27,665 bases of DNA, taken from the IMG/VR virus record IMGVR_UViG_3300042261_001067, positions 1 to 27,665 of that record. The stretch is one strand, 5' to 3'. The stretch's first letter is position 1, and the number at the start of each line of letters is the position of its first letter. A model generated the notes under the pieces. The model saw only the letters and a program-made list of their open reading frames with translations. It did not search any database and was not told the origin of the DNA. This document shows positions 2,129 through 26,185 of the stretch, in pieces. The position numbers and the translations under genes were made by a program. This DNA is from a virus.

Positions 2129-2136
2129 TATTTAGT
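2129..2136 (-). promoter_or_regulatory. TAAATA-type promoter (ACTAAATA) for the cupin gene
   Basis: ACTAAATA lies 16 nt before the cupin ATG at 2112 and overlaps the last codons and stop of the upstream fibre gene (stop at 2132). The same octamer, with the same spacing, occurs before the plus-strand endonuclease gene. Confidence 0.45.
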
Positions 2137-5100
2137 ATAATATTTGACCAGACCACCAATTTCCATTACTTGTATCTAAAGTTGTACCGCCATTTTGAAT
2201 TTGTGAAAATATTTCATAATAATCCATTACATTTGTTGTTATATCTACAAATGAATAAGACGCATATAAATCTTCACCTGCGGCGGTTGTTCTTTTTGAG
2301 AATACCCTACATTTAGAAGCCCCATTTTTGTACACATAAATGTACACTGTACTGTTATTTGCCATATCAACACTAATATTTCCATCAATTTTTATCATTA
2401 CATTAGAAGCATTGGGAGTCCATCTAGCAGCAGAATTAGAATATATTCCATTAACATTCAACACTAAATTAGTATATAATACTTTATCTATTGTATTGTT
2501 ACCAAAAGTTTGTACACCTCCACCAAGGTTTGCATAAAATTTAGTAGATGTTGCTACATTATTCCATTTTTGTGTATTTATATCAATATTATTTAATCTG
2601 TTTGAATTATTATTTATTCGAACTTGCAGATTAGTTTCTGCAACATAAGCTCTATTAGTTTCCGTATTAATTTGTGCTTGTAAATTAGTATTAATAATAT
2701 TAATAAGATTTGTAGTATCTCCGTATGCAATAAATTCGTTATTAGAATATAAATTTGATGATAATCTATACATATTACTAATTACACCAGAACCGTTAAC
2801 ATGTAACATCATTAATGGATTTGTTGTACCTATACCAAAAAAGGAATTAGATGTTCCTGTTTGTGGAACCAAAGACATCATCGGCCAAACAAGATGAGAA
2901 AATTCGTCACCTGTGTCCGTCATATCTATGTCCCATATAATAGGTTTACGTCTATTATTAGACATATAAAAAGTTCCATTTGCAGAGCTAGAAATTATTG
3001 ATGCTTTTCCTCTATTATTGCCTGATCCTCTAATTACCATTCTAATAGATTCATCAATATCATTAATAGCAAAAAATGCTGCGGTTGAATTTGATGCTGT
3101 TGATGCGTTTTTAACCGTATATCTCATAGAACCAGAAAATGATCCGTCCATATAATATGATCTAATATTTACTAATATTTGACCTGTTGTTGAATTTGAA
3201 GATAAGCATGTTCCTACCATTATAATAGCATCAGACAATATAGTAGATGCTTTTGATAATAATCCATTAGTGCCTAAATATATCATGTCGTTGGGTGAAA
3301 ATACTGATGTGTCAATGTCTCTAACAGGACCAAAATTAGCAACTTCAATATTATCACCATAGTTTCCACTAGCTAGAGTTACACCTATGATTGGTAAGGT
3401 TGATGAATCGTTTCTGCTAGAATATTTTATAAGGGGTTTATTACTATAAATACCAGACTGATATACAACTCTTCCTTTTTGAATACCATTGGTTTCACCA
3501 ATTATTACACTTATGGGAACTAGCTGAATATCCGTATATGTTGCCAATGTTCCCCCTTGTGATGGTAATATATAAGTATTTGTTGTGTTTGCAGGAATAT
3601 CAGATGCAGAAAATTTTGCTGCACCACTATTTGTAAGCATGAAAGCACTACTTGAAAAAACAGGATTTTCATAAGTTGTATATTTATTTGGAGTCAATCC
3701 ACCTAAAGTATCAGGTTTCCAAGGGCGCACACTTACATAACCGTTTGTTGAACTTATATGACAAGTTCCAATTTGTTGTACAATATTTGTACCTGTAGGG
3801 GCAACATTTGTAATTCCACCATCAATTGTTGCGCTTACGTATAATTTATCACCAGAAGCAAAAGCAGAGGTATCCATTGTTGCTTCCATTCTTCCGAAAA
3901 ACATTATTCTTCCAATACTTCCTGTTGCTATACCACCAACTTGTACAACCAAACCAATGCTAGGCATGGTTTCGGGTTTTGATCCATTTGATCTTTTGAC
4001 AATAGGAGTGTTTAATGGTGACAACCCGCTAGATATATATACTGCTTCACCAACATTAAGTTTAGTTGTTTCAGCATTATATCCATTATAAAAATTATCT
4101 CTAGCCAATCTTGCAGAATTTCCAGAAGAATCTATAAAATATGGATTTTCCAACCCTGCATAAGTATAAGGATATAATCTTACGTGTCCCGCTTGTGGCG
4201 TAGAAGGTGTAACTGTATTAATTAAAGACATGTCAACTGCTCCACCAAAAATTTGATCCCCATTTTGGTGTGGAGTATTAATATAAAATTTGCCAGAATT
4301 ACCATAATTTGTATAAATTCTTGGATGATAATCAAAAGCATTTGCTTGTATTATTTCGGTATCATATATTCTAATTTTATCGTTAGTTGCAGATGCAACA
4401 CCTAACCATATATTTGACGAAGACCCTGATACTATTCTAATATGATTATTTCTGCTTATTGCAACTCCATCACCAGTTCCGTCTTTAGAATATGCAATAA
4501 ATAAATTACAACTATTAGTAGGAGCCATATATATGCGATGCACATTACCTTGTGATAATGTTCTACCTATTGCATCTTTTTGTGCCACTATTCTAATTTC
4601 GTTTTCATGTATAGTATTTGTATCATTTAAATAAATGTTAAATAATCCACCTATAAAAGTATTAATACATGCTGAATCTGTATTATTATGGGTTAACATC
4701 ATATTTATGATATCATTGGTGTCAGTACATGTAATTTCAGATGATGATCCAAATGATGTAAATTGACTCAATCCTGCATTGTTTGTATCTGTAGTGTGTT
4801 CAAAAATTTGTGCATTACAAATGCTACCCGCACTATTGGCATTGTCATATAATTGTAAATATGTTGTTGCATAAACTTCTGCTAAACCTCTATACATATG
4901 TATTACGCTTTTATAATTATCATCGTTATCATAAGTAGAAGATAAATAACAGGAACGAATGCCTATATAAGCTGAATCTGATCCTGCATTTATCATCAAA
5001 GCGTCAGAGTTTGTCGCTCTTACAGTTAGTAAAGAAATTTCACTTCCTGTTTCGTCTATATATTGTGGAGGAAAAGTGATGTTTCCTAAAATTATTGTTG

Positions 5101-6571
5101 ATTCAATATCATCCCCTCTTATACTCACATAATTTGACATTGTAATATTTTCGGTATATGTACCAGGACTTATACAGATTAGAAAACGATTACTAGAATT
5201 TGCATTTATTGCTGCTGCGTTTATTGCTGCTTGAATTGTTTTAAAAGGTAAAATTGAACTTTCTATTAATGCCTCATTATCATCCCCGTTTGAATCTACA
5301 TAAGCCTTTTGATTGTTAATATTATTAATAGTAGAATCCACATAACTTTTATTTGCTGCATCACCAGCATCTACAGGGTTTCCCATTCCCTTTGGAACAA
5401 GTCCACCTGTGTTGGCACCAGCTAAAAGAACTTCTTGTATAGTTGGGGTTGTGGTTGTGCCCCCGCCGCCGCTTGTTGTTAATGCTCCCCTGCGTATCAT
5501 GAATCTTCTATCAACCCAATATGTTAAATCGTTTCTTAAATTAACATCATTACCACTAAAAATATATGCTGTTGAAATTGGAATATAAGGGGTAAAACTA
5601 GGTGGTAAATCTGGATCATCACCTAATATTGCGCTTGTTTCATTTGTGTATTCATAGGTTGGTAGTATCCAGTTTAATTGTCCAGAATCTGCTACAGACA
5701 TGAAAATTCCACGATACCATTTTGATGTATCACAAGCTGCAATACCGTTTGTATTATTCCATAAACCTATAGGAAATTTATTTGTTATTGTTGTTGTAAA
5801 ATTATTTCCGTTTGTTGAATAATACATAACTAATTTATTAGATGTTGAAAAATTAAAAGAATCGTGTACTATTCTATCGGCTAAATTATGATATTCTATA
5901 CCACCTGTTAATAAAATATCTGTTAAATTTGTACCAGTAGGTCTAACTGTTATACCTTCTGTAATAATTGATGGCATAACGTTGGCAAATGCAACATCTT
6001 CATACATTAATTCATCTCCTGCTCCAATACCTTGTCCAACATGAATAATAGAGCCAAAGGCCGTAACAAATGTAGCAACATATATTGCTTCGCTTGCTGG
6101 TGGTCTTGATCCGGTGCTTTTTAATGTTAAAGGATTGCCATTTGTTGCAAAATAATAATAAGTTACAGTATTATCCAGTAATGTGGCACTACCCGAATTA
6201 ACATGATAATAACCATTTTCAGGATCATAAACATCTCCGGTAGTCCATGAAATATTCAAATTTGTAGAAGGATATTTATCATATGTAAAAACTGGATAAT
6301 CTCTGGCAAGACCGCGAGTTGCAGTATCTTCTAAATAATCTTTAAGATTATATCCACCTAATGCACCAACTCTTGCAACACCTTCATTATTTGAAGTAGT
6401 AGATGCTAATTCGTTTGAACTAACTTTCCCATTTACAACAATTGTTAAATTACTTACATCTTGAACTACAATTGGTAAATCTGTAACATTAGGTATCATA
6501 CTGCTACCCGCAAACACGCTTAACGAAAGCCCCATCAATAGAGCAAATAATATTATTACTTTATTTTTCAT
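2132..6571 (-). CDS. Large phage tail fibre/tailspike with signal-like N-terminus, beta-helix and C1q-like tip
   Basis: The product has 1,479 residues. Residues 1-22 look like a Sec signal peptide (Lys-Asn-Lys, hydrophobic core, VFAG). AANKSYVDS at about 405-413 is a motif common in phage fibres. Residues about 430-790 begin with PFKTIQAAINAA and SPGTYTENITM, typical of right-handed parallel beta-helix (pectate-lyase-like) tailspikes. Two related beta domains follow (about 835-950 and 1016-1145; VGEAVYIS / KGRVVYQS, then FASGDKLYVS / FSPNDMIYLG). FGIGTTNPLMMLHVNG (about 1245) is a common fibre hinge. A short coiled coil (about 1280-1335) precedes a C-terminal C1q/TNF-like jelly roll (about 1340-1479). 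AAAGGATG precedes the ATG. It most likely forms a trimeric receptor-binding fibre. A glycan-degrading activity of the helix is possible but no catalytic residues can be named. Confidence 0.88.
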   Translation of the reverse strand: MKNKVIILFALLMGLSLSVFAGSSMIPNVTDLPIVVQDVSNLTIVVNGKVSSNELASTTSNNEGVARVGALGGYNLKDYLEDTATRGLARDYPVFTYDKYPSTNLNISWTTGDVYDPENGYYHVNSGSATLLDNTVTYYYFATNGNPLTLKSTGSRPPASEAIYVATFVTAFGSIIHVGQGIGAGDELMYEDVAFANVMPSIITEGITVRPTGTNLTDILLTGGIEYHNLADRIVHDSFNFSTSNKLVMYYSTNGNNFTTTITNKFPIGLWNNTNGIAACDTSKWYRGIFMSVADSGQLNWILPTYEYTNETSAILGDDPDLPPSFTPYIPISTAYIFSGNDVNLRNDLTYWVDRRFMIRRGALTTSGGGGTTTTPTIQEVLLAGANTGGLVPKGMGNPVDAGDAANKSYVDSTINNINNQKAYVDSNGDDNEALIESSILPFKTIQAAINAAAINANSSNRFLICISPGTYTENITMSNYVSIRGDDIESTIILGNITFPPQYIDETGSEISLLTVRATNSDALMINAGSDSAYIGIRSCYLSSTYDNDDNYKSVIHMYRGLAEVYATTYLQLYDNANSAGSICNAQIFEHTTDTNNAGLSQFTSFGSSSEITCTDTNDIINMMLTHNNTDSACINTFIGGLFNIYLNDTNTIHENEIRIVAQKDAIGRTLSQGNVHRIYMAPTNSCNLFIAYSKDGTGDGVAISRNNHIRIVSGSSSNIWLGVASATNDKIRIYDTEIIQANAFDYHPRIYTNYGNSGKFYINTPHQNGDQIFGGAVDMSLINTVTPSTPQAGHVRLYPYTYAGLENPYFIDSSGNSARLARDNFYNGYNAETTKLNVGEAVYISSGLSPLNTPIVKRSNGSKPETMPSIGLVVQVGGIATGSIGRIMFFGRMEATMDTSAFASGDKLYVSATIDGGITNVAPTGTNIVQQIGTCHISSTNGYVSVRPWKPDTLGGLTPNKYTTYENPVFSSSAFMLTNSGAAKFSASDIPANTTNTYILPSQGGTLATYTDIQLVPISVIIGETNGIQKGRVVYQSGIYSNKPLIKYSSRNDSSTLPIIGVTLASGNYGDNIEVANFGPVRDIDTSVFSPNDMIYLGTNGLLSKASTILSDAIIMVGTCLSSNSTTGQILVNIRSYYMDGSFSGSMRYTVKNASTASNSTAAFFAINDIDESIRMVIRGSGNNRGKASIISSSANGTFYMSNNRRKPIIWDIDMTDTGDEFSHLVWPMMSLVPQTGTSNSFFGIGTTNPLMMLHVNGSGVISNMYRLSSNLYSNNEFIAYGDTTNLINIINTNLQAQINTETNRAYVAETNLQVRINNNSNRLNNIDINTQKWNNVATSTKFYANLGGGVQTFGNNTIDKVLYTNLVLNVNGIYSNSAARWTPNASNVMIKIDGNISVDMANNSTVYIYVYKNGASKCRVFSKRTTAAGEDLYASYSFVDITTNVMDYYEIFSQIQNGGTTLDTSNGNWWSGQILY

Positions 6572-6585
6572 ATTATCATCCTTTA

Positions 6586-7077
6586 TTATGATTTATAATG
6601 TCCAAACACTACAACATTTCCACCTGCTACTGATCCAATAGTTATTAATGTTGTTGTTCTTTCTATACTATAAAATGAACCCTTTGGAATTTCCAATCCT
6701 GCCGCTGTTAAAGTTCCAAAATTGGTTGTAGGTGGGTTCGAATATGTTATATATATTGATCCATTTGATCTATTAGAAATTTCCATTAAATTTGCTGCTG
6801 GAGAAAACGATAAGGATGAGGATGAATTTGTAACAAAAGTTAATAAATTTTCATTAGTAGTATTTGGTAAACCACCTGAAAGTATAAGATTTGATGTATC
6901 TGTACCAATATTATATGTTAAAACTGCAAATCTTCCATTTGTTGGAACTCCTGTAAGACCTTCACCATTTGTATAGGTAGAAGGGTATCCAGTTATGGTT
7001 GACATATCTATAGGAACAAATTTTCCGTTTTCTGCTAAACTTGGCGAAAATGGTTTATTAAAATCTACTGTACTCAT
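6586..7077 (-). CDS. Small virion-associated beta protein, tandem paralogue A
   Basis: The product has 163 residues and no recognised family. It is clearly paralogous to the next gene upstream (7088-7534). Shared elements include AE-GKFV-ID-ST-TG-PS near the N-terminus, GR(F/Y)A(V/L)LTY, LPNTT-EN-LT, a FSP segment, GL-I---S(F/Y)YS, and an FGHY(K/R) C-terminus. Predicted strands alternate with Ser/Thr/Asn-rich loops; no signal peptide or membrane segment is visible. The ribosome site AGGGAG overlaps the TAG stop of the paralogue, so the two are translated from one mRNA. The position between fibre and collar genes suggests a small fibre-associated or decoration protein; this is inference from context. 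Confidence 0.7.
   Translation of the reverse strand: MSTVDFNKPFSPSLAENGKFVPIDMSTITGYPSTYTNGEGLTGVPTNGRFAVLTYNIGTDTSNLILSGGLPNTTNENLLTFVTNSSSSLSFSPAANLMEISNRSNGSIYITYSNPPTTNFGTLTAAGLEIPKGSFYSIERTTTLITIGSVAGGNVVVFGHYKS
6590..6597 (-). promoter_or_regulatory. TAAATA-type promoter (TATAAATC) for the tail fibre gene
   Basis: TATAAATC lies 18 nt before the fibre ATG at 6571 and overlaps the end of the preceding gene. One base departs from TATAAATA, and the spacing agrees with the other promoters in the window. Confidence 0.4.
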
Positions 7078-7087
7078 AATTTACTCC

Positions 7088-7534
7088 CTAATTTCTATAA
7101 TGTCCAAATGTTCTTACTTCACAACTACTTAATGTACCTATTGAAACTCTTGAAATTTCCCTTTTCATCGAATAATAACTGTTTGATTGTATTGGCAATC
7201 CCTTAGCTGTTAAATCGTTATATGTTGTAGCATTAAATGACAAATATATTGATTCATTACCACTAAAAACTTCAAAATCTACAACAGGAGGGGAAAATAT
7301 TAATGTGCTGGAACTAGCATTTGTTAGAGTTAAAACGTTTTCTAAAGTTGTATTTGGTAGTAAATTAACAGTATTTGTTGCAGATGTGGCATTAATATCA
7401 TACGTTAAAAGTGCATATCGCCCTCTTGATGAACTTGGTAATCCTGTTAAAGTTGAAGAATCTATTACTACAAATTTTCCGCGCTCTGCTTCGGCGGGGG
7501 CATATCCAGATGCAAAATTTACTTCAATACTCAT
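7088..7534 (-). CDS. Small virion-associated beta protein, tandem paralogue B
   Basis: The start at 7534 (MSIEVNFASGYAPAEAERGKF) is chosen over 7567 because AGGAG lies 8 nt upstream and because the sequence then aligns from its first residues with the paralogue at 6586-7077. That gives 148 residues. Shared blocks are GKFVVID-STLTGLPS, GRYALLTYDI, LPNTTLENVLT and the C-terminal FGHYRN. The family is not recognised. Unlike its neighbours it has a long leader of about 97 nt carrying a branched RNA structure that begins where the predicted transcript starts. The gene ends with TAG, which also forms part of the next gene's ribosome site. Confidence 0.7.
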   Translation of the reverse strand: MSIEVNFASGYAPAEAERGKFVVIDSSTLTGLPSSSRGRYALLTYDINATSATNTVNLLPNTTLENVLTLTNASSSTLIFSPPVVDFEVFSGNESIYLSFNATTYNDLTAKGLPIQSNSYYSMKREISRVSIGTLSSCEVRTFGHYRN

Positions 7535-7587
7535 GTATCTATCTCCTAACAGAATGGCTCGATACAAAGCGGTTGATATACAATACC

Positions 7588-7674: not shown

Positions 7675-8523
7675 TTAATATTTTATAAAATATTTAACAA
7701 TTGCATAAGGAGGTAAATTTGTGAAAGCTTTTCCGCCGCCTGTTGATAAAACATTGATAGTATGTGTATGTGTTCCAGAATCCATTAATCCATAACCACC
7801 AGCCAAAACACTATTTACTACTCTTGATGCTGTTGTGTCAATATGTCCAATGTGATTGCCATCATAGCTATTTGTAGCAGTATGTGTATGTGCAGGTAAA
7901 TTATTAGTAGTTAGAGTAATAGTATTTAAACCACCTGTTTTACTCATAGAATCATATAAAGGTTGAGAAACATCTAATCCCATTAACGTTCTACCCTTAA
8001 AATTAGGTAAATTAAAAGTATTTGTTCCATCACCAGAACCGTATAAAGTTCCAATATTATCAAATAAATTTAAATATGTAGTTCTTGATACTGCTGAACC
8101 ATCGCATTCTAGCCATCCAGCAGGTGGGTTAGTTCTTGCAAAGGCCAAAACGCAACCTACTGGCATTGAATTAGTTGCTACATAATTTGTGCTAGCTAAT
8201 GGCGCAATATCGTTTGTTGTTGGTAAAGGTGCAATTTTAGCGTCAACATAATTTGTGCTGGCTAATGTATTTGTTGCAATTGTTATACTATTATTAACAT
8301 AATTTGTATCTGCTAAATTATTAGTTATGGAAAATTTTGCAAAAGTATTATCTAGGGTTATTAATAAATTAGTACCTTGTAAATATAAAGTTCCCACAAT
8401 ATAAGCATTATTTATAATATTACTACTACCATTTAATGACACAGGACGATTATATGTTTGTATCTGCCCTAAAGTTGAATAACCTATAAAAGTTAATAAC
8501 ATTGTTAATAATATTTTTTTCAT
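7675..8523 (-). CDS. Phage tail-collar-domain fibre protein with signal-like N-terminus
   Basis: The start at 8523 (MKKILLTMLLTF) has GGAG 8 nt upstream and a TATAAATA element 16 nt upstream; the open frame further up begins only at a TTG. The product has 282 residues. Residues 1-20 resemble a Sec signal (Lys-Lys, hydrophobic core, then GQ). Residues about 65-120 contain repeated TNYV segments (ADTNYV, ASTNYVDAK, ASTNYVATN) typical of fibre shafts. Residues 121-182 form a phage tail-collar domain: PVGCVLAFARTNPPAGWLEC, then LYGSGDGTNTFNLPNFKGR. LPAHTHT at 209-215 and THTHT near 251 recall His-x-His metal-binding regions of collar/short-fibre tips. The ending LPPYAIVKYFIKY is the usual collar C-terminus. 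It is most likely a trimeric fibre tip. Confidence 0.92.
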   Translation of the reverse strand: MKKILLTMLLTFIGYSTLGQIQTYNRPVSLNGSSNIINNAYIVGTLYLQGTNLLITLDNTFAKFSITNNLADTNYVNNSITIATNTLASTNYVDAKIAPLPTTNDIAPLASTNYVATNSMPVGCVLAFARTNPPAGWLECDGSAVSRTTYLNLFDNIGTLYGSGDGTNTFNLPNFKGRTLMGLDVSQPLYDSMSKTGGLNTITLTTNNLPAHTHTATNSYDGNHIGHIDTTASRVVNSVLAGGYGLMDSGTHTHTINVLSTGGGKAFTNLPPYAIVKYFIKY

Positions 8524-8554: not shown

Positions 8555-8866
8555 TTACTTTTTACTGTCTTTACCAGCCTCTTTCTTTGCCTTGTCCTTC
8601 GCTGACTTTTCTATCACCTCAATCTCTGCCAGTTTCGCAAACAACTTACTAATGGCATCGTCCTTCTTCGCCTGGTTGTTTGCCGCCTGCCACTCTGCAC
8701 GTAGATCGGCATAGCTGACACCTGCCGTCGCGTTCGTGGAGATTGCTGTTGCAAGATCGTGTTTGTTCGCCTCATCCTGATTCCTGATTCCAAGTGGCTC
8801 GCCGGGTGACAGCGTAGCCGTTACCAGAATCAGTGTTCCGAAAAATATGCAGATGTTCTCTCTCAT
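8555..8866 (-). CDS. Small exported helical protein of the GC-rich island
   Basis: The product has 103 residues. Residues 1-20 look like a signal sequence or membrane anchor (MRENICIFFGTLILVTATLS). The rest is charged and helical (AEWQAANNQAKKDDAISKLF; AEIEVIEKSAKDKAKKEAG), ending in a Lys/Asp tail. The ribosome site AAAGGAG is the best in the region and overlaps the TAA stop of the upstream LamG gene, so the pair is co-translated. The codons are GC-rich, unlike nearly all other genes here, which marks it as co-acquired with the upstream gene. The family is not recognised; a small fibre-assembly partner or periplasmic helper for the LamG protein is possible. Confidence 0.65.
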   Translation of the reverse strand: MRENICIFFGTLILVTATLSPGEPLGIRNQDEANKHDLATAISTNATAGVSYADLRAEWQAANNQAKKDDAISKLFAKLAEIEVIEKSAKDKAKKEAGKDSKK

Positions 8867-10253
8867 GTTGGTTCTCCTTTACGGCGCACAAGGTGCGGCC
8901 ATACCTTTGATTGTGATGTTGATGTTGCTCGATGCCCACACTCCCATATTGTTCGTAGTGGAAGAGAAAGTGCAGTTCGTCCGTAGCGCGGTGAACAGCA
9001 GGTTCGACGGGTCTGTGGAGTCCACCAGTAGCGGCTTGTAGCTCCAGTTCGTCAGCGTACCGTCCACAGATACAGCATAGCCCAACTGGTTGTTTGTCAG
9101 GTCTGCGACAGAGTTCGTGCTTTGCGCGATCCAAGTTAACATCTGGTTTGATACAACAAAACTGACAACCTTGTTGGTAATGGTCAGATACATGGACGAT
9201 TGCATTATCGTGCCGTCGCCCTCAGTCCCAGCTCCGGAATTGTACAAAATCTCAATATCTGACTGAGTTAGGACATTGGTATAGACTCGGACATCATCAA
9301 TGGTCCCCTTGAAATGCTTATCCCCATTGTCAGACCCTACACGCAGGGCGTTTGTACTAACTATACCATCAAACGTACCATAATCAAGGGAGGATGATTT
9401 CAGTGAACCATCGAACCATAAGGATATGTTCGTTATAGACGAACCACCCTTCGTGTTGAAAATGGCAACGACATGGTGCCAATTATCGTCATTAGGCTGT
9501 GCTGAATTGTATAGTCGAGAACCATTAAGACAGCCTACGTCCATCTGATTTCCACTTTGATTGAATGCGACAATAAAGCCTGCGCTAGTAACCCAACCGT
9601 CACCACTTTTGGACAGAAGTATTTGGTTGTCGTCGCCAGAACCATTCTTCTTGAACCACAGCGACACAGATACTGATGTGTTGGTTCCTATGAAGCAGGT
9701 GTCGTCATTCATCCTGATGATGTCACTCGTTCCGTTGAACTCTATGCCGCCATTTATCTTTCCGGTAGCGTGCATATCTGCTGTATTCTGTGAGGCTACA
9801 GCATTGAGGGACGCTCCGGCAGAATCCTCGATTGTTGTATTTGCCGCATCATCATTCATCTTGTAATGCGCGACCATTCCGGTAGGTTCATTCGTTGCAG
9901 CCACAGTAACCTGATTCGCGTATCCTGAACTCACCCATTTGTATCCGCTGCTCAGGTTTGTCATAATCCCGTTTTGATCCGTGAACAGGTAGCTAGGCCC
10001 ATCAATAAAACCGCTCCCGGCAGTCAGGCTATGCAGCGCGTCCAGATACCAACTTCGCAGAAGGTTCTTGCTGATCCACGATGCAACAGAAATCTGCGAG
10101 CCGCTTTTCGTGAGCGTGATCCCGTCCACCGTCTGCAAAGGAACCGCAGGATAGGCAGGAAGGGTAGCATCAGTGATGACGGGTGACAGGTTCGTTCCGC
10201 TCCCGATCCGTAGAACACCGTTGCTCTGACTGGTTAGTGTGGTTGTTACGTCA
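8557..10253. other. GC-rich island, probably horizontally acquired
   Basis: Base composition jumps at both edges. Hand counts give 32/60 G+C at 8641-8700 and 33/60 at 10021-10080, against 14/60 at 8341-8400 and 11/60 at 10321-10380. The right edge falls at about codon 50 of the LamG gene, inside the reading frame. The left edge falls at the end of the small helical gene. The island thus carries the body of one protein and a whole second gene under the phage's own start signals. No terminal repeats, transposase or attachment site were seen. Confidence 0.8.
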
Positions 10254-10402
10254 GCAAATACAATTTTTTCAACGGTTATATTAGTTTTAAAAATAATTGG
10301 ATTTTTTTCTATTTTATAATTTTGAGCAAATACTGTGAAGTTTGTTAATATTATATTTAAAAATATTAACAAACTGTATTTTAATTTAAAATAATTATTC
10401 AT
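8879..10402 (-). CDS. Chimeric LamG-domain adhesin/fibre protein
   Basis: The product has 507 residues. Residues 1-26 look like a Sec signal (MNNYFKLKYSLLIFLNIILT ending in VFAQ). Residues 1-50 are encoded by AT-rich DNA, the remainder by GC-rich DNA. A LamG/concanavalin-like domain spans about 177-395: MVAHYKMNDDAANTTIEDSA, then VSLWFKKNG, NWHHVVAIF, LWFDGSLKSSSLD, and GTIDDVRVYTNVLTQSDIEI. The C-terminal 110 residues are beta-rich without a known family. AAGGA precedes the ATG and a CATAAATA element lies upstream. LamG domains usually bind glycans, so a receptor-binding role is plausible. The sharp composition change indicates that a new body was fused onto a resident N-terminus. Whether it is a virion protein or a secreted one is unresolved. 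Confidence 0.82.
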   Translation of the reverse strand: MNNYFKLKYSLLIFLNIILTNFTVFAQNYKIEKNPIIFKTNITVEKIVFADVTTTLTSQSNGVLRIGSGTNLSPVITDATLPAYPAVPLQTVDGITLTKSGSQISVASWISKNLLRSWYLDALHSLTAGSGFIDGPSYLFTDQNGIMTNLSSGYKWVSSGYANQVTVAATNEPTGMVAHYKMNDDAANTTIEDSAGASLNAVASQNTADMHATGKINGGIEFNGTSDIIRMNDDTCFIGTNTSVSVSLWFKKNGSGDDNQILLSKSGDGWVTSAGFIVAFNQSGNQMDVGCLNGSRLYNSAQPNDDNWHHVVAIFNTKGGSSITNISLWFDGSLKSSSLDYGTFDGIVSTNALRVGSDNGDKHFKGTIDDVRVYTNVLTQSDIEILYNSGAGTEGDGTIMQSSMYLTITNKVVSFVVSNQMLTWIAQSTNSVADLTNNQLGYAVSVDGTLTNWSYKPLLVDSTDPSNLLFTALRTNCTFSSTTNNMGVWASSNINITIKGMAAPCAP

Positions 10403-10419
10403 AATATTTTCCTTACAAC

Positions 10420-10427
10420 TATTTATG
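10420..10427 (-). promoter_or_regulatory. TAAATA-type promoter (CATAAATA) for the LamG gene
   Basis: CATAAATA lies 17 nt before the ATG at 10402 and includes the stop codon region of the upstream fibre gene (stop at 10423). It is in AT-rich DNA, outside the GC-rich island, so the foreign segment appears to be driven by a resident promoter. Confidence 0.5.
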
Positions 10428-11785
10428 TATACAATGGAATTTTTAAAGCACTACCATTTATATTTATGGTTAAAAATAGATCAGATGATGTTACAGTACC
10501 ATAAAATGTTGTAGCATTTGTTAATACTATATCAGAACTACTTAATGTTCCACTTGTGCTCACATTTCCATGCATAGATATTGTACCGTCTGGTGTATAT
10601 GGTTTTATACAATCTGTTGATAGACAATCACTTAATGACAACCCATTTAAATTTAAAGTAGCATCTGATAAACTATAAGTGATATCTTGTCTTTGTAAAG
10701 TTCTACACCATACATCTATAGGTCTTGCAATATCTCTTGCACTTAAATAATAATTATAATTATCTAGTACAAAAAAGCTAAAAGATTGTCCAGCATCAAT
10801 AATCATTCCTACATTATGAGCGTGTTCAACATCAGAATCAGGTAATAATCCTAAATTTCCAACTCTTGCTAACCCAACTACTTTTTCTTGATTTAAATTA
10901 TCTACAACTATACCAAAAATTTCACCATAAGATGTTGATGATAATGCTTCTACAGTAACGGTAACAAATAATTCGTTATCACCCGATGGAACTATTACTA
11001 AAGTACTTGAAGTGTTTGATGCAATAGTTGAAGAATCGCCTAAAGGTTGGTTATAACTTAATTCAGTCCATTTATCTTTAATATTAAAAGTAAAATTCGA
11101 TGATAAACCTAAATAAGTATTAGCACTTATAACATTTGTATTTATTATATTAGCATTATTGATATTATTATTATTTAAATTAATATTATCATAACAATTT
11201 ATATCAGGATTGCCTCGCAAATCTGTCACAGTTAAATCTACTACATCTAAATTACCAACAGGCTCTGTGACTGTTAAATTATCAGTATTAACAGTTGAAA
11301 AATCTCCTGTGCGTGTAACATATAAATCTCTATTGGTTTTTAAATCCCCACCAAAACTTGCCCAAGAGGTTCCAGATATTCCAATACCATTTAAAAGCAA
11401 ATTATTATAACCAGGTATTAAAATATAAGAAGGTATTGATAAACTATAATCTTCTCCAATTACCATAAATCCGCTAAGTTCTGAATAATTTAAGTCTAAT
11501 TGATGAATTGTTGCAGAAAGTGCTGTTAAATTAGATACTAAAAGCTTGTTAGGAGGCAAAATTTCTATTAAATCTCCAGAAAAAGGACGAATATTGTTCG
11601 TTGCTATGTCTCTTGCAGAAAGTAAGGAACCGTCTGGATATATTACAAATTCACCACGCCAATTATTTGAAAAACTTGCAATAGGATCGTGTGCTGAATC
11701 CGGTATTGCAGAATTAGGTTGTGAATGATGATTAAATCTATGAAATTTCAATTTTGTTATCGTTGTTTTTTTAATTACAACTTCA
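10423..11785 (-). CDS. Fibre-like structural protein, 3' exon of an intron-split gene
   Basis: The open frame has no ATG at its 5' end; only a TTG at 11751 could serve, and it lacks a ribosome site. Joining 12074-12043 to 11785-10423 gives 1,395 nt, exactly 464 codons plus stop, with the new N-terminus MFVVPTLVDD-F-EVVIKK continuing in frame. The protein is rich in Asn/Ser/Thr and beta strands. It has a segment of repeated NLTV/DLTVTDL units (about residues 180-205), an Asn-rich linker (LNNNNINNANIINTN), and a C-terminal part with GTISMHGNVSTSGTLSSSD-like repeats typical of phage fibres. YLSARDIARPIDVW echoes LLSARDIATNNIRP nearer the N-terminus. No signal peptide is present, unlike several neighbours. 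Fibre function is inferred from composition and context. Confidence 0.75.
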
Positions 11786-12194: not shown

Positions 12195-13496
12195 ATGAAT
12201 TTAGAAATAGAAAAAAACAATTTAAATTTTTATTATTTAATAGGATTAATTTGTACTGATGGTAATATACGATATCCAGAATGCGATAAAACAAATAGAG
12301 CATATAGTGTTAGAATTGGGCTACATAATGATGATATTGATCTATTAAATAAAATCAAAAAATTATATGGAGGTAGTTTATATATATCAAAAACTCATAA
12401 ATATACTGTATGGCAATTAAACGATAAGAATTTGGTAAATTTTCTTAAAGAAATAGGTTTAACAAACAGAAAAACATATAATTTAGATATAGAAAAATGG
12501 TTTGATAATTTAAATATATCATATAAATTATCATTTTTACGTGGATGTTGGGATGGCGATGGATCAATAAATATTTATAATAGAAAAACTGGAGCAACAA
12601 AATCAGTAACAACCCACATTTGTTCTGCTTCTATAAAATTTATTAATCTTTTTAAAAACCATTTCAAATTAGGTCAAATTAAAATTATTTCTAAAGATAA
12701 ACAAAATTCATATAAAAAAGATATAATATCTACAGTTGATTTATATTATTATCATTTAAATGGCAAAAATAGTTTAATATTAAAACAAATATATGAAAAT
12801 ATAGATATAAATAGTTTGTTTATAAAAAGAAAATATGAAAATTGGTTAAAAATTTTAGAATATTATAACACACATCAAGATAGGTTTGTTACTTCTAAAT
12901 ATTATGGAGCATCTTTTTGTAAATCAACAAAAAAATGGACATGTTTAATTAAAAATAATTATAATAATTATAATTTATCTGGATTTCCAACTGAAAAAGA
13001 TGCTGCTATAGCATATGACATTTGTACAATTTTCTTTAAAAAATCTGAATGTAAAATCAATTTTCCAACTTTAATTGATGAATATAATCAAATATTAACA
13101 AACGAGTTAAAAGGTTCAAGTGATTTTAATATATTAAAACAGAACATACAAAGCATAATTCAAAAAGTATCTATATCAAGCAATAAAATAAAAACAAAAA
13201 ATATAAATCAAAAAAATTATAAAGGTGTTCAAAAACACTTTACAAAATTTATTTGTTATATACATTTTAAAAAGAAATCAATACAAGTAAAACCTAGATT
13301 TGATACTGAAATAAAAGCTGCTATTATTAGGGACACTTTATATTATAACATAAATAAAGGTGAAAAACTATACAATTTAAATTTTATAGAAAAAATAGAA
13401 GAATATAAACAATTTGATATTAATACATTAATTAACTATTTTACTCCAAATAAATATAAATTTATAATAGAAAATTTAGATAAAACTGATCAATAA
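12195..13496 (+). CDS. LAGLIDADG homing endonuclease with AP2-like DNA-binding repeats
   Basis: The product has 433 residues and is the only plus-strand gene. LAGLIDADG motif 1 is LIGLICTDGNI (about 15-25) and motif 2 is FLRGCWDGDGS (about 114-124); the Asp residues D22 and D120/D122 sit at the catalytic positions. A single chain with both motifs should act as a monomer cutting an asymmetric site. Residues about 230-290 (YYGASFCKSTKKWTCLI, then GFPTEKDAAIAYDI) and about 337-390 (YKGVQKHFTKFICYI, then FDTEIKAAIIRD) match the AP2 DNA-binding fold found in other homing endonucleases. The gene starts 120 nt from the first exon of the intron-split gene, on the opposite strand, and its end overlaps the next minus-strand gene by 7 nt. 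It is very AT-rich and Asn/Lys-rich. It looks freestanding rather than intron-encoded. Confidence 0.9.
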   Translation: MNLEIEKNNLNFYYLIGLICTDGNIRYPECDKTNRAYSVRIGLHNDDIDLLNKIKKLYGGSLYISKTHKYTVWQLNDKNLVNFLKEIGLTNRKTYNLDIEKWFDNLNISYKLSFLRGCWDGDGSINIYNRKTGATKSVTTHICSASIKFINLFKNHFKLGQIKIISKDKQNSYKKDIISTVDLYYYHLNGKNSLILKQIYENIDINSLFIKRKYENWLKILEYYNTHQDRFVTSKYYGASFCKSTKKWTCLIKNNYNNYNLSGFPTEKDAAIAYDICTIFFKKSECKINFPTLIDEYNQILTNELKGSSDFNILKQNIQSIIQKVSISSNKIKTKNINQKNYKGVQKHFTKFICYIHFKKKSIQVKPRFDTEIKAAIIRDTLYYNINKGEKLYNLNFIEKIEEYKQFDINTLINYFTPNKYKFIIENLDKTDQ

Positions 13497-13703: not shown

Positions 13704-14282
13704 TTAAAACATATGAATCATATATAACATAAATTTAATAAATTGTGGAACTTCCATTATTTTAATCAATTTTATAGCAAAAGAAAAATATGTGGTTGTT
13801 ATTAAAACTGCTATAGTATTACCAATAATGAAATTTTTAATAGACATATTTCTAAAAGCAGAACAAATTACAACGCTGCTACTAAGTGGGGTTGGAATTA
13901 ATCTAATTAGTGTTACATAATACCATTTAACATTAGTTATTAATCCTTTTAATAAAATTTTATCATACCATCTTTTAATTTTTTTATTTTTTAAATAATC
14001 AATATATTCTTTTGATATATCTTTATCCTTTTTATAAAATAAAACCCATCTCCAATAAAAGAAATATAAACAACTATTAATTGCCCACAAAAAAGACATT
14101 AATGGTATAGTTATGTAAGGTCCATATAAATAACTGGTATTCATTATAATCCATGTGGGAGGTGGAATACCATTAAAATGGCTTACCATTATTGCTGATA
14201 AGGTATAAATATTATTTGCACCAATACTATATAAAAAATAAAATAGCAATAAAGATAATATAATTATTAAGATTTTTTTCAT
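13704..14282 (-). CDS. VTT/DedA-like (SNARE-associated family) membrane protein
   Basis: The product has 192 residues with hydrophobic segments at about 4-20, 52-80, 115-145 (re-entrant-like) and 150-175. The segment YVTLIRLIPTPLSSSVVICSAFRNMSIKNFIIGNTI resembles the conserved R-x-x-P-x-x-P ... F-x-x-G-N/T block of VTT/DedA/TVP38 proteins, which act in lipid scrambling or transport across the inner membrane. The match is by motif only and the family is divergent. It is encoded inside a run of structural genes, directly before the small anchored protein. The start has no clear ribosome site; a TCTAAATA element ends 6 nt before it, so the mRNA may be leaderless. The role in phage infection is unknown. 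Confidence 0.6.
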   Translation of the reverse strand: MKKILIIILSLLLFYFLYSIGANNIYTLSAIMVSHFNGIPPPTWIIMNTSYLYGPYITIPLMSFLWAINSCLYFFYWRWVLFYKKDKDISKEYIDYLKNKKIKRWYDKILLKGLITNVKWYYVTLIRLIPTPLSSSVVICSAFRNMSIKNFIIGNTIAVLITTTYFSFAIKLIKIMEVPQFIKFMLYMIHMF

Positions 14283-14298: not shown

Positions 14299-17200
14299 TT
14301 ATTTAATCATGTCAAGTATAACTTCTTCACATTCAAATAATTTTTTAATAGGACGACATAATACAGGAGCAGTAACAAACTCGTTTACTCCAATATATAT
14401 TTCATCTTTAGTATATGGAAGTTTTTGATATTCTTCAGTTGTAAATGATCTTACAACAGGTTTTAAATATTCAGAAACTACATCAATTGTTACAATTTTA
14501 CCATTTGAGTATAAGAAATCTTGATCACAAAAATAACTTAAATCATTTGGTAAATCAAAAGTTGACAACATGGTAACACTTGTAGTATTTTGTATTGTTT
14601 TATAAGCAAATTTACCTAATAAACTCTTTCTAAATAATTCCAAATTATCCCAAAATCTATTTAAACATCTATTAATTACCCAATCTTGTATATATTCGTT
14701 TGAATTAATTAATAAGCTTTCCAACGGCCATGATTTTTCTACAATATCTTGATTTATTTTCACAATAAATAATTTGTCAATATATTTTAATATATGATTA
14801 GGTGTGATAATATATAAATTTTTAAATTCATCATGATAAACATTTTTATAATTTTCAGTATAATTTACAAAATCGTTATTTGCAAAAATTGATTGTGTTT
14901 CGTTATGATACATGATTTTTATGATTTTATCACTATAACAAATATATCCAAATCCATCATCACTACAAGGTCTAATAGTTTTTGCATTATTATAAGTTAA
15001 TGAAATTAATTTAATAAAATTACCATTAGAATCAAATTTAGCAATTTTTGAACTTGTTAAAACATAGATATTATTATTTTCGTCTAAAGTTACGCTTAAT
15101 GGTGCTTCTTGTTTAAAATGATCAATATTAAGAGTTTGTAACCAGCTTCCAGTTCTTGTAAATTTTTTGACAACATTATTTCCTGTATCCGCTACCCAAA
15201 TATTATTTAATTTATCAACATATAAATCTTTAGGATTATTAAACTTGGTTTTAGCATTCGGGCCACCTAAACCTCCCCAATTATATAATAGTGTCCAAGA
15301 TAAATCGTTTTCATTAAATTCAAAAACAATTATTCTATTTTTTGAACCATTTGAAACATTATTTTCATCTATTGTATCTAATAAATAAATTCTATTATCA
15401 GAATCTAATTTTATACTATTAATGTTTGTAAAATAATCGCCAATTGTCTTATAATTAATTGTGCTTATTTGAGTTGCTTTAAAATCTGATGATAATATAT
15501 AAACGTTTGTACCATTTGAAACGTACATTACATTATTTTTTACATAGCAATCTTTGAGATTTGTAAATTTATCATCTATTGCCCAATCAGGATTATTATA
15601 ACCATAAGAAATATTAGGAATATTAACATACCATTTAAAATGTTTACTGCTGTTTGCATAATATATTGTTCCTAACCAACCATAATATTCGGTAGGAGGT
15701 ACATCATATAATTCTGACATATATTGTAAATATTCTAAATTATTATAAAGCTTTGTCATTGATGCATTAAAGGTGTTTTCAACTAACCAATCGTTGTCAC
15801 CTATGGCACAACTATCGTAATCATAAGGCAATTCTAATTTAGTAGATTGGTATACTCGATCAACATTTTCGTCATATAGAGTATAAGCTGTATCAACATT
15901 TACAATATTTTGAAATTCGTTTTGAAGTTCTATAATGCTGTTATAAGAGCTAAAATGCGTTGTTAATATTAAATCTACAATACTTTCATTATTTACGTTG
16001 GTTACATAATTTGTACAAGTTGTTTGAACATAATCATTTCCTCTATCAGTCCATGTAATGTCTTGTACACCACTAAAACATTGAATTAGATTTTCAAATT
16101 TTATATCAGTTCCAGTTACAACATATTTGTTAGGGGTATAAACAACCGGAGTCATAGGATAAACAGTTATATCTTGTTTATTATTTAATGTAGAAACTGG
16201 AGTGTTTGTAAAACACCATGACGCATTTAAAGCAGATGGATGCGATATTTTCAAACTTGGTGTAATTTCAATAATAGGTATAACACTTAATATGTTTGTT
16301 TCATATTTTGGAAAACTCAAATATCCGCTTCCAACATCATCAACATTTATATAAACGTTTGTAGGCGCAGTACTTACTAATAAACTGGCGGTTTTTATAA
16401 CTTGTGAATAAACAGAAGATAATAAGAAACTATAACCGCCAATATAATAATTAAATGGTGTATTATTTATAGAACCATTATTATATAAATAACCACCTGT
16501 TAAATATACATAACTTGGAATTCCCATAGGGCTGACTTGCAAATCTATTATATTTGGTTCTAATCCTGATGACTCTATTCCGTAATATTCAATATGTTTT
16601 TTATGTGATCCAGTTGTTGGTAAAAAAGTTGTACTGAAGTTTTGATATAATGCACCACTTATAGTATCATAATAAGTGCTAGGCATTGTTGTTGGTAGGG
16701 CAGACGTATATAATGCAGCACATATTGAATGATATGTTGTTCCTTGTGGTGAAGCTACAGCAAGCCATCCTGTAGGACTTGTTAATGTTGTTACTGTTTG
16801 ATCACTATTATCTAAACTATTTTGTACACTCCAAATATATTGATTTGCAATTTTATCAGAAGAACTTACAAAAAAGTTTTCTGTATGGCAAAATGAATAA
16901 GCGGATAATCCGGCACTAGATAATAATACTGTGCCAGAATCTGATTCTTTAGAATAAACAACTTGTCCCCATGTGCTGCCGTTCCATTGAAATTCAGGAT
17001 AAATTATCCAATTATCAGCATTTGGAAATTGTGTAAAAACTACACTTTTTTGTGTGGCATTTTTTGTAACATAATCCGTAAATCCATTAGCAGATATTTG
17101 TACTGTTAAATCAATTGTACAAAGATGTGGAACAGTACAGTCAAAAGTATGATAAATTTCTGTGGGTATACTTCCATTTATACTATCAAACGGTATAGTT

Positions 17201-18654
17201 GTGACCAAATCGTTGAAAGTATAAATTAAATTTCCTACTGTACTTGCAGGAATTATAGAATCATTTGAAATTCTGTAATTTCCACTTGTTAAAGGACGAT
17301 AAGTTGTATTTAATGTTAATGGTTCATATTGGAAAGTGCATTGTGGCTTAAATAATGTATCATCATACCATTCAGTTAAATAAATTGTAAAATCAGTATA
17401 TTTTACTGCATTTGTAGTATTATTGCCAGAAAGGGCAGATACTACAAAATTATATGTACATAATCTTGGTGAAGTTGTTGTAATTGATGGAGCTATATAT
17501 AAATTTAAATCCTCAATATTATAGACAGTATTAATAGTATTAAAATTATAAGTGACATTATTCGTCTTTTTAGCATATACACCATTATTGTTGGTTGTGT
17601 TTTTCCATATTAAGTAATAATTAGATGGCAAATTATGTAAAATATTATCTGTAATTCCATACATACTTACAAAATATTGATGCTGTTGAACATCATCAAT
17701 AACACTTGAAACAGTTGCTGTTAATGTTGTATTTTGTGTTATATTTAAATAAGGTCTAAATGTTCCGCTTATTTCTCCAGTATATGAACTTAAACTATAT
17801 ACATAAGAATTTGTAAAATCTGTTGTACTTATATTAATCCAATCTCCAGTAGCTGCACTATATGATGTATTAAATGTTAAAAGAATTTCCTCTTTTTTAG
17901 ATGATAATATTTCAGTAGAAAATGGTGTTAATTTCCATTTAAGTTGTTTATAAGTAGGAAGTCCTATATTATATTGACTAGCAGATAATTCGATTGATGA
18001 TACTGTAGTGTTTTTAACTTCCATGCTTATCGGACCATTAATTTGAATAATGCTATCATATGGTAGATAACTTGTTATAGGTAATGTTGATACTGATAAT
18101 TGATAACTATTATAGTCTATTTCATTTGAACTCAAATATAATGCACTTGCTAAATAAGCTTTATTAGTAATAGTATTATCAAAATTTGAAAAAGATGCTG
18201 AATAATTATATTTTGCAGATAATTCATCCGTACTTGGGCTTGTATACCACCATAAATCACAATTTTTATAAATTGGCATTAAATTATTCGTGGATACTTG
18301 TCTAAACCAAGCAAATGCACTTAAAGAAGTGTCAGTTAACCTACTTTGTTGAACATATAGATGATATGGATTAAATATATAAATAGCACTTGTAGTTGGA
18401 AAATCTGGATGATATGCACATAGTATTACTGCCTGTGTATCTGAAATTGCCGTAACTCTTATGGTGTCTGTATTAGCTGATGAAACCCCCCAATCAAGAG
18501 ATAAATTATCTGCATTTGTGACAGCAACAGGATAAGTAGTATTTAAAACATAATTATCACTACTAAATTTTAAATTTTGCCACGCAACATTAGCAACTGT
18601 GCTTAATGTAAAATATGTTGTACCAGATGTTGTTGTTTCAAATGTTATATTCAT
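14299..18654 (-). CDS. Giant structural/adhesin protein with C-terminal NHL-like beta-propeller
   Basis: The product has 1,451 residues, extremely rich in Ser/Thr/Asn/Tyr and beta strands. The first 1,000 residues appear to be a series of Ig-like beta domains (for example CTIDLTVQISANGFTDYVTK, ending like PKD/Ig strands), without a firm family. Residues about 1005-1300 form an NHL-type propeller: FNNPKDLYVDKLNNIWVADT, then SVTLDENNNIYVLTSSKIAK, with further degenerate blades. The last 150 residues are unlike the rest (WVINRCLNRFWDNLELFRKS) and may dock to the virion. There is no signal peptide. GGA precedes the ATG, and the upstream gene's TAA ends one base before it, indicating coupling. An adhesive tail or baseplate component is likely from size and neighbours. 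Confidence 0.75.
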   Translation of the reverse strand: MNITFETTTSGTTYFTLSTVANVAWQNLKFSSDNYVLNTTYPVAVTNADNLSLDWGVSSANTDTIRVTAISDTQAVILCAYHPDFPTTSAIYIFNPYHLYVQQSRLTDTSLSAFAWFRQVSTNNLMPIYKNCDLWWYTSPSTDELSAKYNYSASFSNFDNTITNKAYLASALYLSSNEIDYNSYQLSVSTLPITSYLPYDSIIQINGPISMEVKNTTVSSIELSASQYNIGLPTYKQLKWKLTPFSTEILSSKKEEILLTFNTSYSAATGDWINISTTDFTNSYVYSLSSYTGEISGTFRPYLNITQNTTLTATVSSVIDDVQQHQYFVSMYGITDNILHNLPSNYYLIWKNTTNNNGVYAKKTNNVTYNFNTINTVYNIEDLNLYIAPSITTTSPRLCTYNFVVSALSGNNTTNAVKYTDFTIYLTEWYDDTLFKPQCTFQYEPLTLNTTYRPLTSGNYRISNDSIIPASTVGNLIYTFNDLVTTIPFDSINGSIPTEIYHTFDCTVPHLCTIDLTVQISANGFTDYVTKNATQKSVVFTQFPNADNWIIYPEFQWNGSTWGQVVYSKESDSGTVLLSSAGLSAYSFCHTENFFVSSSDKIANQYIWSVQNSLDNSDQTVTTLTSPTGWLAVASPQGTTYHSICAALYTSALPTTMPSTYYDTISGALYQNFSTTFLPTTGSHKKHIEYYGIESSGLEPNIIDLQVSPMGIPSYVYLTGGYLYNNGSINNTPFNYYIGGYSFLLSSVYSQVIKTASLLVSTAPTNVYINVDDVGSGYLSFPKYETNILSVIPIIEITPSLKISHPSALNASWCFTNTPVSTLNNKQDITVYPMTPVVYTPNKYVVTGTDIKFENLIQCFSGVQDITWTDRGNDYVQTTCTNYVTNVNNESIVDLILTTHFSSYNSIIELQNEFQNIVNVDTAYTLYDENVDRVYQSTKLELPYDYDSCAIGDNDWLVENTFNASMTKLYNNLEYLQYMSELYDVPPTEYYGWLGTIYYANSSKHFKWYVNIPNISYGYNNPDWAIDDKFTNLKDCYVKNNVMYVSNGTNVYILSSDFKATQISTINYKTIGDYFTNINSIKLDSDNRIYLLDTIDENNVSNGSKNRIIVFEFNENDLSWTLLYNWGGLGGPNAKTKFNNPKDLYVDKLNNIWVADTGNNVVKKFTRTGSWLQTLNIDHFKQEAPLSVTLDENNNIYVLTSSKIAKFDSNGNFIKLISLTYNNAKTIRPCSDDGFGYICYSDKIIKIMYHNETQSIFANNDFVNYTENYKNVYHDEFKNLYIITPNHILKYIDKLFIVKINQDIVEKSWPLESLLINSNEYIQDWVINRCLNRFWDNLELFRKSLLGKFAYKTIQNTTSVTMLSTFDLPNDLSYFCDQDFLYSNGKIVTIDVVSEYLKPVVRSFTTEEYQKLPYTKDEIYIGVNEFVTAPVLCRPIKKLFECEEVILDMIK

Positions 18655-18655
18655 G

Positions 18656-20974: not shown

Positions 20975-21885
20975 TATATTTTCTTCCTATATTCATAATT
21001 TGGTGTTTGAATAGTTTTCATGTTAGCAAAATTAACATCCATTTGATTATTAATAATATTTATTTTAGTATTATATGGTAAATCAAACAAATGATTTATT
21101 TTAATTCCAGAAATTGATTTAGATTCATTTATTTCAACATTTTTATTGTTTGTTGCATCATTGAAATTGTTATAATACCAAACCCATGTATGATCTCTAG
21201 TAAAACCCGTTGGTATAAAATTTATATCAAAATTATTAATTGTAAATAAATAATCATTGTTTTGTGTGGTTCCGTTTGCTCTTAATTTGCCTTGTTCTGG
21301 TCCATGCTTTGTATAACTCCAATATCTTTCAATTGTTGAGCTTCCCACACCACTTTCATTGGTAATTCTTGTAGTAATATAAGATTGTGAATTATTTAAA
21401 ATATTCATATTAAATTTTTGATGGTGTAATTCATCATTAGGCAATAAAGATTCTAAAGTCAAATCAAATGGTGTTTGATTGCTAACCGTTACATATGTGC
21501 CAGTTCCTTGTAAAAAGGAATAGGTATTGTCAGAATTTACAATAAGTCTAAAATAACTAGAATCACTTGATACTGGTGTTAAATATAATTCATTATCAAC
21601 ATTTGTAACATATTGTGAATTTATTTGTAATACTATATAATCACCTAATATGCAATTATCCAAGGGTGTTTCTTGTATTATATTAAACAAATCTGATGAA
21701 CTAGTTAAATAAAATATGCTATCATTGTTTAAACTTGTATCTACATTATAATCAAATACATTTTGTTTAAAAGTTTGATATCCGTCTTTCCATGCTATTG
21801 AATCTGTATTTAATTTTATATTATTATCATAAGGATAATTAGCAGATAATGGTATCAAATTTAATGTTGAAAGTGTTTGAATCAT
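20974..21885 (-). CDS. Beta-rich structural protein, possible beta-trefoil
   Basis: The product has 303 residues. Residues about 82-150 (GDYIVLQIN, YFRLIVNSDNTYSFLQGTGT, YVTVSNQ) resemble the repeat pattern of fascin/ricin-type beta-trefoil lectins, where a line of form GKYV is followed by a hydrophobic strand and a DGTY turn. The match is weak and covers only about two repeats. The remainder is beta-rich with a Trp/Tyr-rich patch (RDHTWVWYYNN). No signal peptide or membrane segment is seen. Both ends share a base with the neighbouring genes through ATG/TAA overlaps (TAATG), so it is tightly coupled with the two giant genes beside it. It is likely a component of the same adhesive structure. 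Confidence 0.65.
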   Translation of the reverse strand: MIQTLSTLNLIPLSANYPYDNNIKLNTDSIAWKDGYQTFKQNVFDYNVDTSLNNDSIFYLTSSSDLFNIIQETPLDNCILGDYIVLQINSQYVTNVDNELYLTPVSSDSSYFRLIVNSDNTYSFLQGTGTYVTVSNQTPFDLTLESLLPNDELHHQKFNMNILNNSQSYITTRITNESGVGSSTIERYWSYTKHGPEQGKLRANGTTQNNDYLFTINNFDINFIPTGFTRDHTWVWYYNNFNDATNNKNVEINESKSISGIKINHLFDLPYNTKINIINNQMDVNFANMKTIQTPNYEYRKKI

Positions 21886-26156: not shown

Positions 26157-26162
26157 ATTAAA

Positions 26163-26170
26163 TATTTATG
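26163..26170 (-). promoter_or_regulatory. TAAATA-type promoter (CATAAATA) for the PKD gene cluster
   Basis: CATAAATA ends 6 nt before the ATG at 26156 in the 29-base gap after the upstream gene. With T4-late spacing the mRNA would begin at the start codon, which agrees with the lack of a ribosome site. Confidence 0.4.
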
Positions 26171-26185
26171 AATACAACACTATTT

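Follow-up and report, generated by a model that had tools for sequence, protein, structure and literature searches.

A GC-rich LamG coding unit joined in frame behind a resident N-terminus in an AT-rich virus record

A LamG gene in the IMG/VR virus record IMGVR_UViG_3300042261_001067 has kept its resident start site and N-terminus and continues, in frame, into ~1.7 kb of foreign coding DNA. The window, that is, the whole stretch of DNA analysed, is this entire metagenome-derived record (27,665 bases), which probably represents part of the genome of an AT-rich tailed phage. Our favoured account, to which we assign a probability of roughly 0.6, is that the unit is a two-gene cassette recently received from another phage, joined behind a resident export signal and encoding an exported lectin-type product.

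Composition and codon use of the island

The best single GC-rich segment of the window, with maximum-likelihood edges at 8574 and 10255, has a G+C content of 49.3%, compared with 28.3% in the rest of the window (log-likelihood gain of 155 nats). In 60-base windows, G+C dropped from ~58% at start 10180 to 15% at start 10260 on one side, and from ~58% at start 8660 to 13% at start 8500 on the other. The GC-rich island fused in frame to an AT-rich N-terminus, as described in the initial annotation, is therefore real. The edges given there, 8557 and 10253, deviate by 2 bases at the LamG joint and by 17 at the opposite end, which is blurred by the Lys-rich final codons of a small gene. The abrupt shift in composition was also recovered, although the hand-counted jump from 20% to 54% G+C becomes 14% to 53% by exact counting.

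Composition and codon use changed together at the island, as the sliding-window comparison that had been proposed revealed. The G+C at the three codon positions (GC1/2/3) was 0.16/0.14/0.12 in codons 1-49 of the LamG gene, rising to 0.51/0.52/0.57 in codons 50-173, 0.47/0.43/0.47 in codons 174-394 and 0.40/0.47/0.68 in codons 395-507. The adjoining 103-aa gene had values of 0.52/0.39/0.56. Thus, GC3 was 0.47-0.68 in the island parts versus 0.09-0.165 in every other gene of the window. When codons were scored against resident usage, the other genes (16 out of 16, leave-one-out) reached +0.45 to +0.69 bits/codon, and codons 1-49 of the LamG gene, with 14% G+C, scored +0.60, whereas the four island parts ranged from -0.69 to -1.28 bits/codon. 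Leucine codons illustrate the reversal: CTG and CTC account for 23 out of 563 island codons versus 7 out of 8169 elsewhere in the window, while TTA is found in 2 and 466 of them, respectively. Since codon use is resident up to codon 49 and reversed thereafter, the N-terminus is resident, and the remainder of the LamG gene and the 103-aa gene are not, as had been proposed. Composition and codon use, by which a recent acquisition would be recognised, both set these foreign parts apart from all resident genes. Promoter-like sites numbered 27, compared with 21.7 (sd 4.2) in shuffles, with no meaningful excess, and no promoter emerged from this comparison.

The chimeric gene and its joint

The chimeric LamG gene (8879..10402, minus strand) encodes 507 aa, its frame is open across the joint, and its product matches PF13385 with E=1.3e-20. 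The resident part starts with a predicted Sec signal peptide (residues 1-26, MNNYFKLKYSLLIFLNIILTNFTVFA|Q; 10325..10402, minus strand), which combines a hydrophobic core, a Q at +1 and resident codons. It continues with a linker (residues 27-49; 10256..10324, minus strand), at the end of which the joint lies, about codons 42-50. The foreign part consists of an N-terminal portion (residues 50-173; 9884..10255, minus strand), the LamG module with its 'NDDAANTT' signature (residues 174-394; 9221..9883, minus strand) and a C-terminal portion with a GC3 of 0.68 (residues 395-507; 8882..9220, minus strand). For the two outer portions, no relatives were found in any collection searched.

A second foreign gene, encoding a 103-aa protein, follows at 8555..8866 on the minus strand. 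Its AAGGAG ribosome-binding site (8874..8879, minus strand) overlaps the LamG stop codon, suggesting that the two genes are probably translated together and that translational coupling is likely. The product has a signal-peptide-like N-terminus, is helical (in a structure model of low confidence) and ends in a Lys-rich tail.

Reading frames are unbroken at both island edges, one of which coincides with a gene end, making misassembly unlikely. We found no long exact repeats at the joints, where direct and inverted repeats are only weak and AT-rich. A resemblance between the foreign N-terminal portion and the region just after the signal peptide of the resident 1479-aa protein (55 aligned columns, shuffle p ~0.009) was too weak to be retained.

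Resident genes of the window

Almost all genes in the window are encoded on the minus strand. Downstream of the island lies a gene for a tail-collar-domain protein (7675..8523, minus strand) with its own predicted signal peptide (YSTLG|QIQ, cut by eye), and upstream a gene for a 442-aa protein without known family (10423..11751, minus strand). Several further proteins of the window fit no known family either, including the tandem paralogues at 6586-7077 and 7088-7567, which share 41% identity. Big structural-type proteins with NHL, PKD and LamG domains are encoded within 14299-26156. The LamG domain encoded at 18656-20974 looks split, with profile positions 9-66 at 20054-20233 and 76-147 at 18926-19180, the two halves being ~290 residues apart with propeller-like repeats in between. 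A VTT/DedA-type membrane protein (13704-14282, E=1e-8) and a cupin protein (1657-2166, E=9e-8) sit within the phage structural region. In the protein encoded at 2132-6571, residues 861-950 match (E=5e-7) a protein whose gene adjoins the putative capsid gene in Acinetobacter phage phiAC-1, an odd match for a fibre-like protein.

A homing-endonuclease-like gene of the LAGLIDADG/HNH type (12195-13496, 20% G+C) lies ~1.8 kb from the island, on the strand opposite to most genes. AP2-like stretches were noticed when reading its translation. This gene could promote local recombination near the island.

The LamG module and its relatives

The Laminin_G_3 profile (PF13385) matched residues 224-383 with 74.6 bits, compared with a gathering cut-off of 27.6, covering profile positions 2-150 of 151. 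In the predicted structure, the LamG stretch alone was well modelled (blocks mostly 63-89 pLDDT, the remainder <50 pLDDT) and adopted a concanavalin-A-like, lectin-type jelly roll, with matches to LamG/ConA-like folds down to E=3e-12. Fold matches to the binding domains of clostridial toxins reflect only the common lectin jelly roll, and we rejected these domains as kin.

To retrieve relatives, viral contigs were scanned with a DNA pattern for the opening motif of the module, ND[NDS]AANTT. This drew 22 viral loci, 19 of which encode a tblastn relative of residues 174-394 (E=5e-23 to 5e-6). The G+C content of these 19 loci spans 31-62%, and their gene contexts are unlike: judging by names read from translations, the module occurs inside DUF2163-like baseplate and distal-tail-like genes, in stand-alone genes and in signal-peptide proteins. 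The module is promiscuous among these viral contigs. An equivalent scan of 84,980 genomes yielded 82 pattern matches, only 3 of them confirmed as relatives, and one of these is the same 15,165-base phage contig as locus L010. Although the patterns and tests of the two scans differed slightly, the confirmation rates (19/22 versus 3/82) suggest that this LamG subtype, ND[ND]A[AT]NTT, is mainly viral. Bacteria often carry LamG domains of the broader kind, which are present, for instance, in 50 out of 193 Omnitrophota genomes.

In all 18 relatives with enough flank to be measured, the G+C content of the LamG gene was within 0.057 of that of the rest of its contig, whereas the window copy differs from its background by 0.21. 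This makes the window copy an outlier and probably a recent arrival, in line with the recent capture that had been suggested.

The search for a donor was less rewarding. With the foreign LamG part and the 103-residue protein as queries, as the initial annotation had advised, no donor of matching composition was found in phages, plasmids, viral contigs or genomes at the sensitivity used. Searches with the LamG protein returned nothing in phages, genomes or viral contigs (peptide patterns), generic LamG only in plasmids and no match among PHROG profiles. The neighbouring genes, used as anchors for syntenic relatives, retrieved none in viral contigs or phages.

A related gene pair in a Mu-like phage contig

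The small gene, used as the sole query against viral contigs, gave no match. Its counterpart came from one of the LamG loci, L012 (IMGVR_UViG_3300031227_000237), a Mu-like phage contig of 62% G+C that carries head protease, major head and tape-measure genes, together with Mu-like transposition genes recognised by reading translations. The LamG gene of this contig (ATG at 7753) starts with a signal peptide and is followed by a gene for a 108-aa Lys-rich signal-peptide protein (10145-10471). The 108-aa and 103-aa proteins align over their full length with 32% identity. This similarity exceeds that of shuffled sequences (z=7.7 at full length, 3.8 for the core) and is weak when the Lys-rich tail is left out. 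When the window protein was stripped of its signal and Lys-rich parts, the L012 gene ranked 1 out of 1377 small ORFs from the fetched loci, by a small margin. A motif scan with the small gene recovered L012 again, the other matches being attributable to chance. The two small genes are probably homologous, with moderate confidence, this being a single relative.

In both loci, a LamG gene with a signal peptide precedes, within a structural region, a small gene for a Lys-rich signal-peptide protein, suggesting that the pair is probably a cassette common to the two. They differ in that L012 has 62% G+C, its LamG module is 32% identical and the N- and C-terminal portions of its LamG protein are unrelated, their alignments with those of the window protein not rising above shuffles. 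These unlike portions indicate that L012 is a cousin and not the donor. The occurrence of the same two-gene pair in a Mu-like contig favours a phage donor. The initial annotation had left the choice between a bacterial genome and a phage of another host; the second is favoured by this pair and by the abundance of the LamG subtype in viral contigs, while the donor itself eluded us. In the same contig, a structural-region protein encoded at 3530-4060 opens like a type IV pilin (MRKKFTTIEMLVVIALIALMAAL).

Signal peptides and the probable host

Residues 1-26 of the LamG protein would constitute a Sec signal peptide, with a hydrophobic core and a cleavage site (FTVFA|Q) that was placed by eye and not by SignalP. 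Glutamine at +1 is typical of signal peptides of Bacteroidota, not of related phyla (PMC5837995), and Porphyromonas phages carry genes whose signal peptides follow this Q rule (PMC10367356). With sites likewise placed by eye, the rule fits the proteins encoded at 8879-10402 (FTVFA|Q) and 7675-8523 (YSTLG|Q) and does not fit that encoded at 2132-6571 (SVFA|G). By reading, it is also broken by the signal peptides of both L012 proteins and by that of the small gene in the window. The protein encoded at 625-1116 opens with a lipobox (STGC), and the large proteins encoded within 14299-27661 have neither signal peptide nor lipobox. The glutamine at +1 and the Porphyromonas phage precedent make Bacteroidota our best guess for the host, a guess drawn from two residues.

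Origin of the cassette and alternative explanations

In the account that we favour, the island would be a recently gained two-gene cassette among the tail-adhesin genes of an AT-rich tailed phage. One gene supplies the mature portion of a LamG (lectin-fold) protein, the other a small helical protein rich in Lys. Composition, codon use and uninterrupted frames show that recombination attached the donor body, in frame, to the start site and predicted signal peptide of the resident gene, about codon 42-50, and that the exchange ended at, or just past, the small gene's stop codon. The most likely source is another phage with a higher G+C content and a different host, and the recipient would have retained an export signal suited to its host while swapping the carbohydrate-facing part. 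The product is most likely Sec-exported, with its lectin-type domain displayed at the cell surface; alternatively, virions may display it if the signal stays uncleaved or if assembly is extracytoplasmic. In what we regard as the weakest step, the displayed domain would bind surface glycans, with the small protein as its partner.

The exchange may instead have been a receptor-binding swap, with the LamG protein as a virion fibre or spike, the N-terminus as its tail anchor, a body that alters host range and a signal that is incidental or unused; we consider this possible, at clearly less than even odds. It would suit a gene in a tail-adhesin block, beside a collar-domain protein and the fibre-like 1479-aa protein, and phage fibres as a rule exchange their C-terminal domains and retain the N-terminus (PMC10684548). 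The fold matches also include LamG-fold virion proteins, such as a 'virion structural protein' of Synechococcus phage S-PM2. However, the 49 kept residues comprise a typical Sec signal peptide and 23 linker residues, without an attachment domain, and no such signal is present in two homologues of the collar protein, one from an Arthrobacter and one from a Microbacterium phage. Moreover, hypervariable binding proteins encoded by phages have been reported without signal peptides (PMC6199706), so we hold back the label of receptor-binding domain capture. A lectin-type fold (Laminin_G_3) is all that is recognised in the protein, and its N-terminus is a predicted signal peptide and short linker in place of a virion-attachment domain. 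With this kept Sec-type signal and its Q at +1, the product is no less likely to be exported from the infected cell than to serve in the virion.

That the cassette is a moron taken straight from a bacterial (or prophage) genome, and not from another phage, appears unlikely: the abundance of LamG domains in bacteria, the signal peptides of both genes, as in secreted bacterial proteins, and a composition like that of a mid-G+C genome would agree with it, whereas the predominantly viral confirmations of the LamG subtype in the two slightly different scans and the same gene pair within a Mu-like phage do not. We consider it very improbable that a piece of another genome was wrongly joined into an AT-rich contig, even if the edges are abrupt, the record is metagenome-derived and no close relative confirms the joint. 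Such a chimera needs two independent false joins on one strand, one of them in frame right after a signal peptide and the other at a gene end that leaves the next start site intact, and the joints have no long exact repeat. Local selection on protein or RNA raising the G+C content of resident DNA is hardly credible, as the change in GC3 from 0.12 to 0.47-0.68 reverses synonymous choice beyond any amino-acid demand, and in the 18 measurable relatives the LamG gene conforms in composition to its contig.

Beyond the favoured account, we put forward a broader and rather doubtful view, in which phages of unrelated hosts would trade a two-gene exported-adhesin cassette, each recipient retaining a signal peptide suited to its host while a new mature part is placed behind it. 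The swap would then be governed by export compatibility, not by tail attachment, and signal-peptide 'tail' proteins would be produced beyond the cytoplasm or displayed on the infected cell. Should the product be exported, this would indicate that phages trade surface-display proteins across hosts, with mature domains swapped behind a host-matched signal peptide. The LamG cassette also supplies a concrete candidate for a small-gene partner.

Comparison with known systems

Phages are well known to swap receptor-facing domains while the N-terminus is retained. Mosaicism of recent origin between distinct phage families has been observed in tail fibres and spikes alone (PMC10684548, Nat Commun 2023). 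The present case resembles that mosaicism in keeping an N-terminal part while exchanging the C-terminal part, and in a recent transfer across unrelated phages that affects tail-adhesin genes. It differs in that the kept part is a signal peptide plus linker, the moved unit comprises a gene body and an entire second gene, and the G+C contrast at the joint is extreme (14% to 53%). The Q-rule genes of Porphyromonas gingivalis phages, whose function is unknown and which are thought to act at the host envelope (PMC10367356), likewise have Sec signals that expose an N-terminal Gln, but they are not reported as mosaic LamG genes, and the host of the window phage is only inferred. The LamG/concanavalin-A-like tail proteins of phages belong to the same domain family (PF13385, E=1.3e-20); unlike the window protein, most of the relatives retrieved here have no signal peptide, and every one that could be measured agrees with its contig in composition. 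By mechanism, this is domain mosaicism of a known type, a clean example and not a new class, in which the joint of a foreign module can be placed within about eight codons and the kept part is a predicted export signal. What sets it apart is the unusually sharp contrast, the unusual junction and the second gene that moved along.
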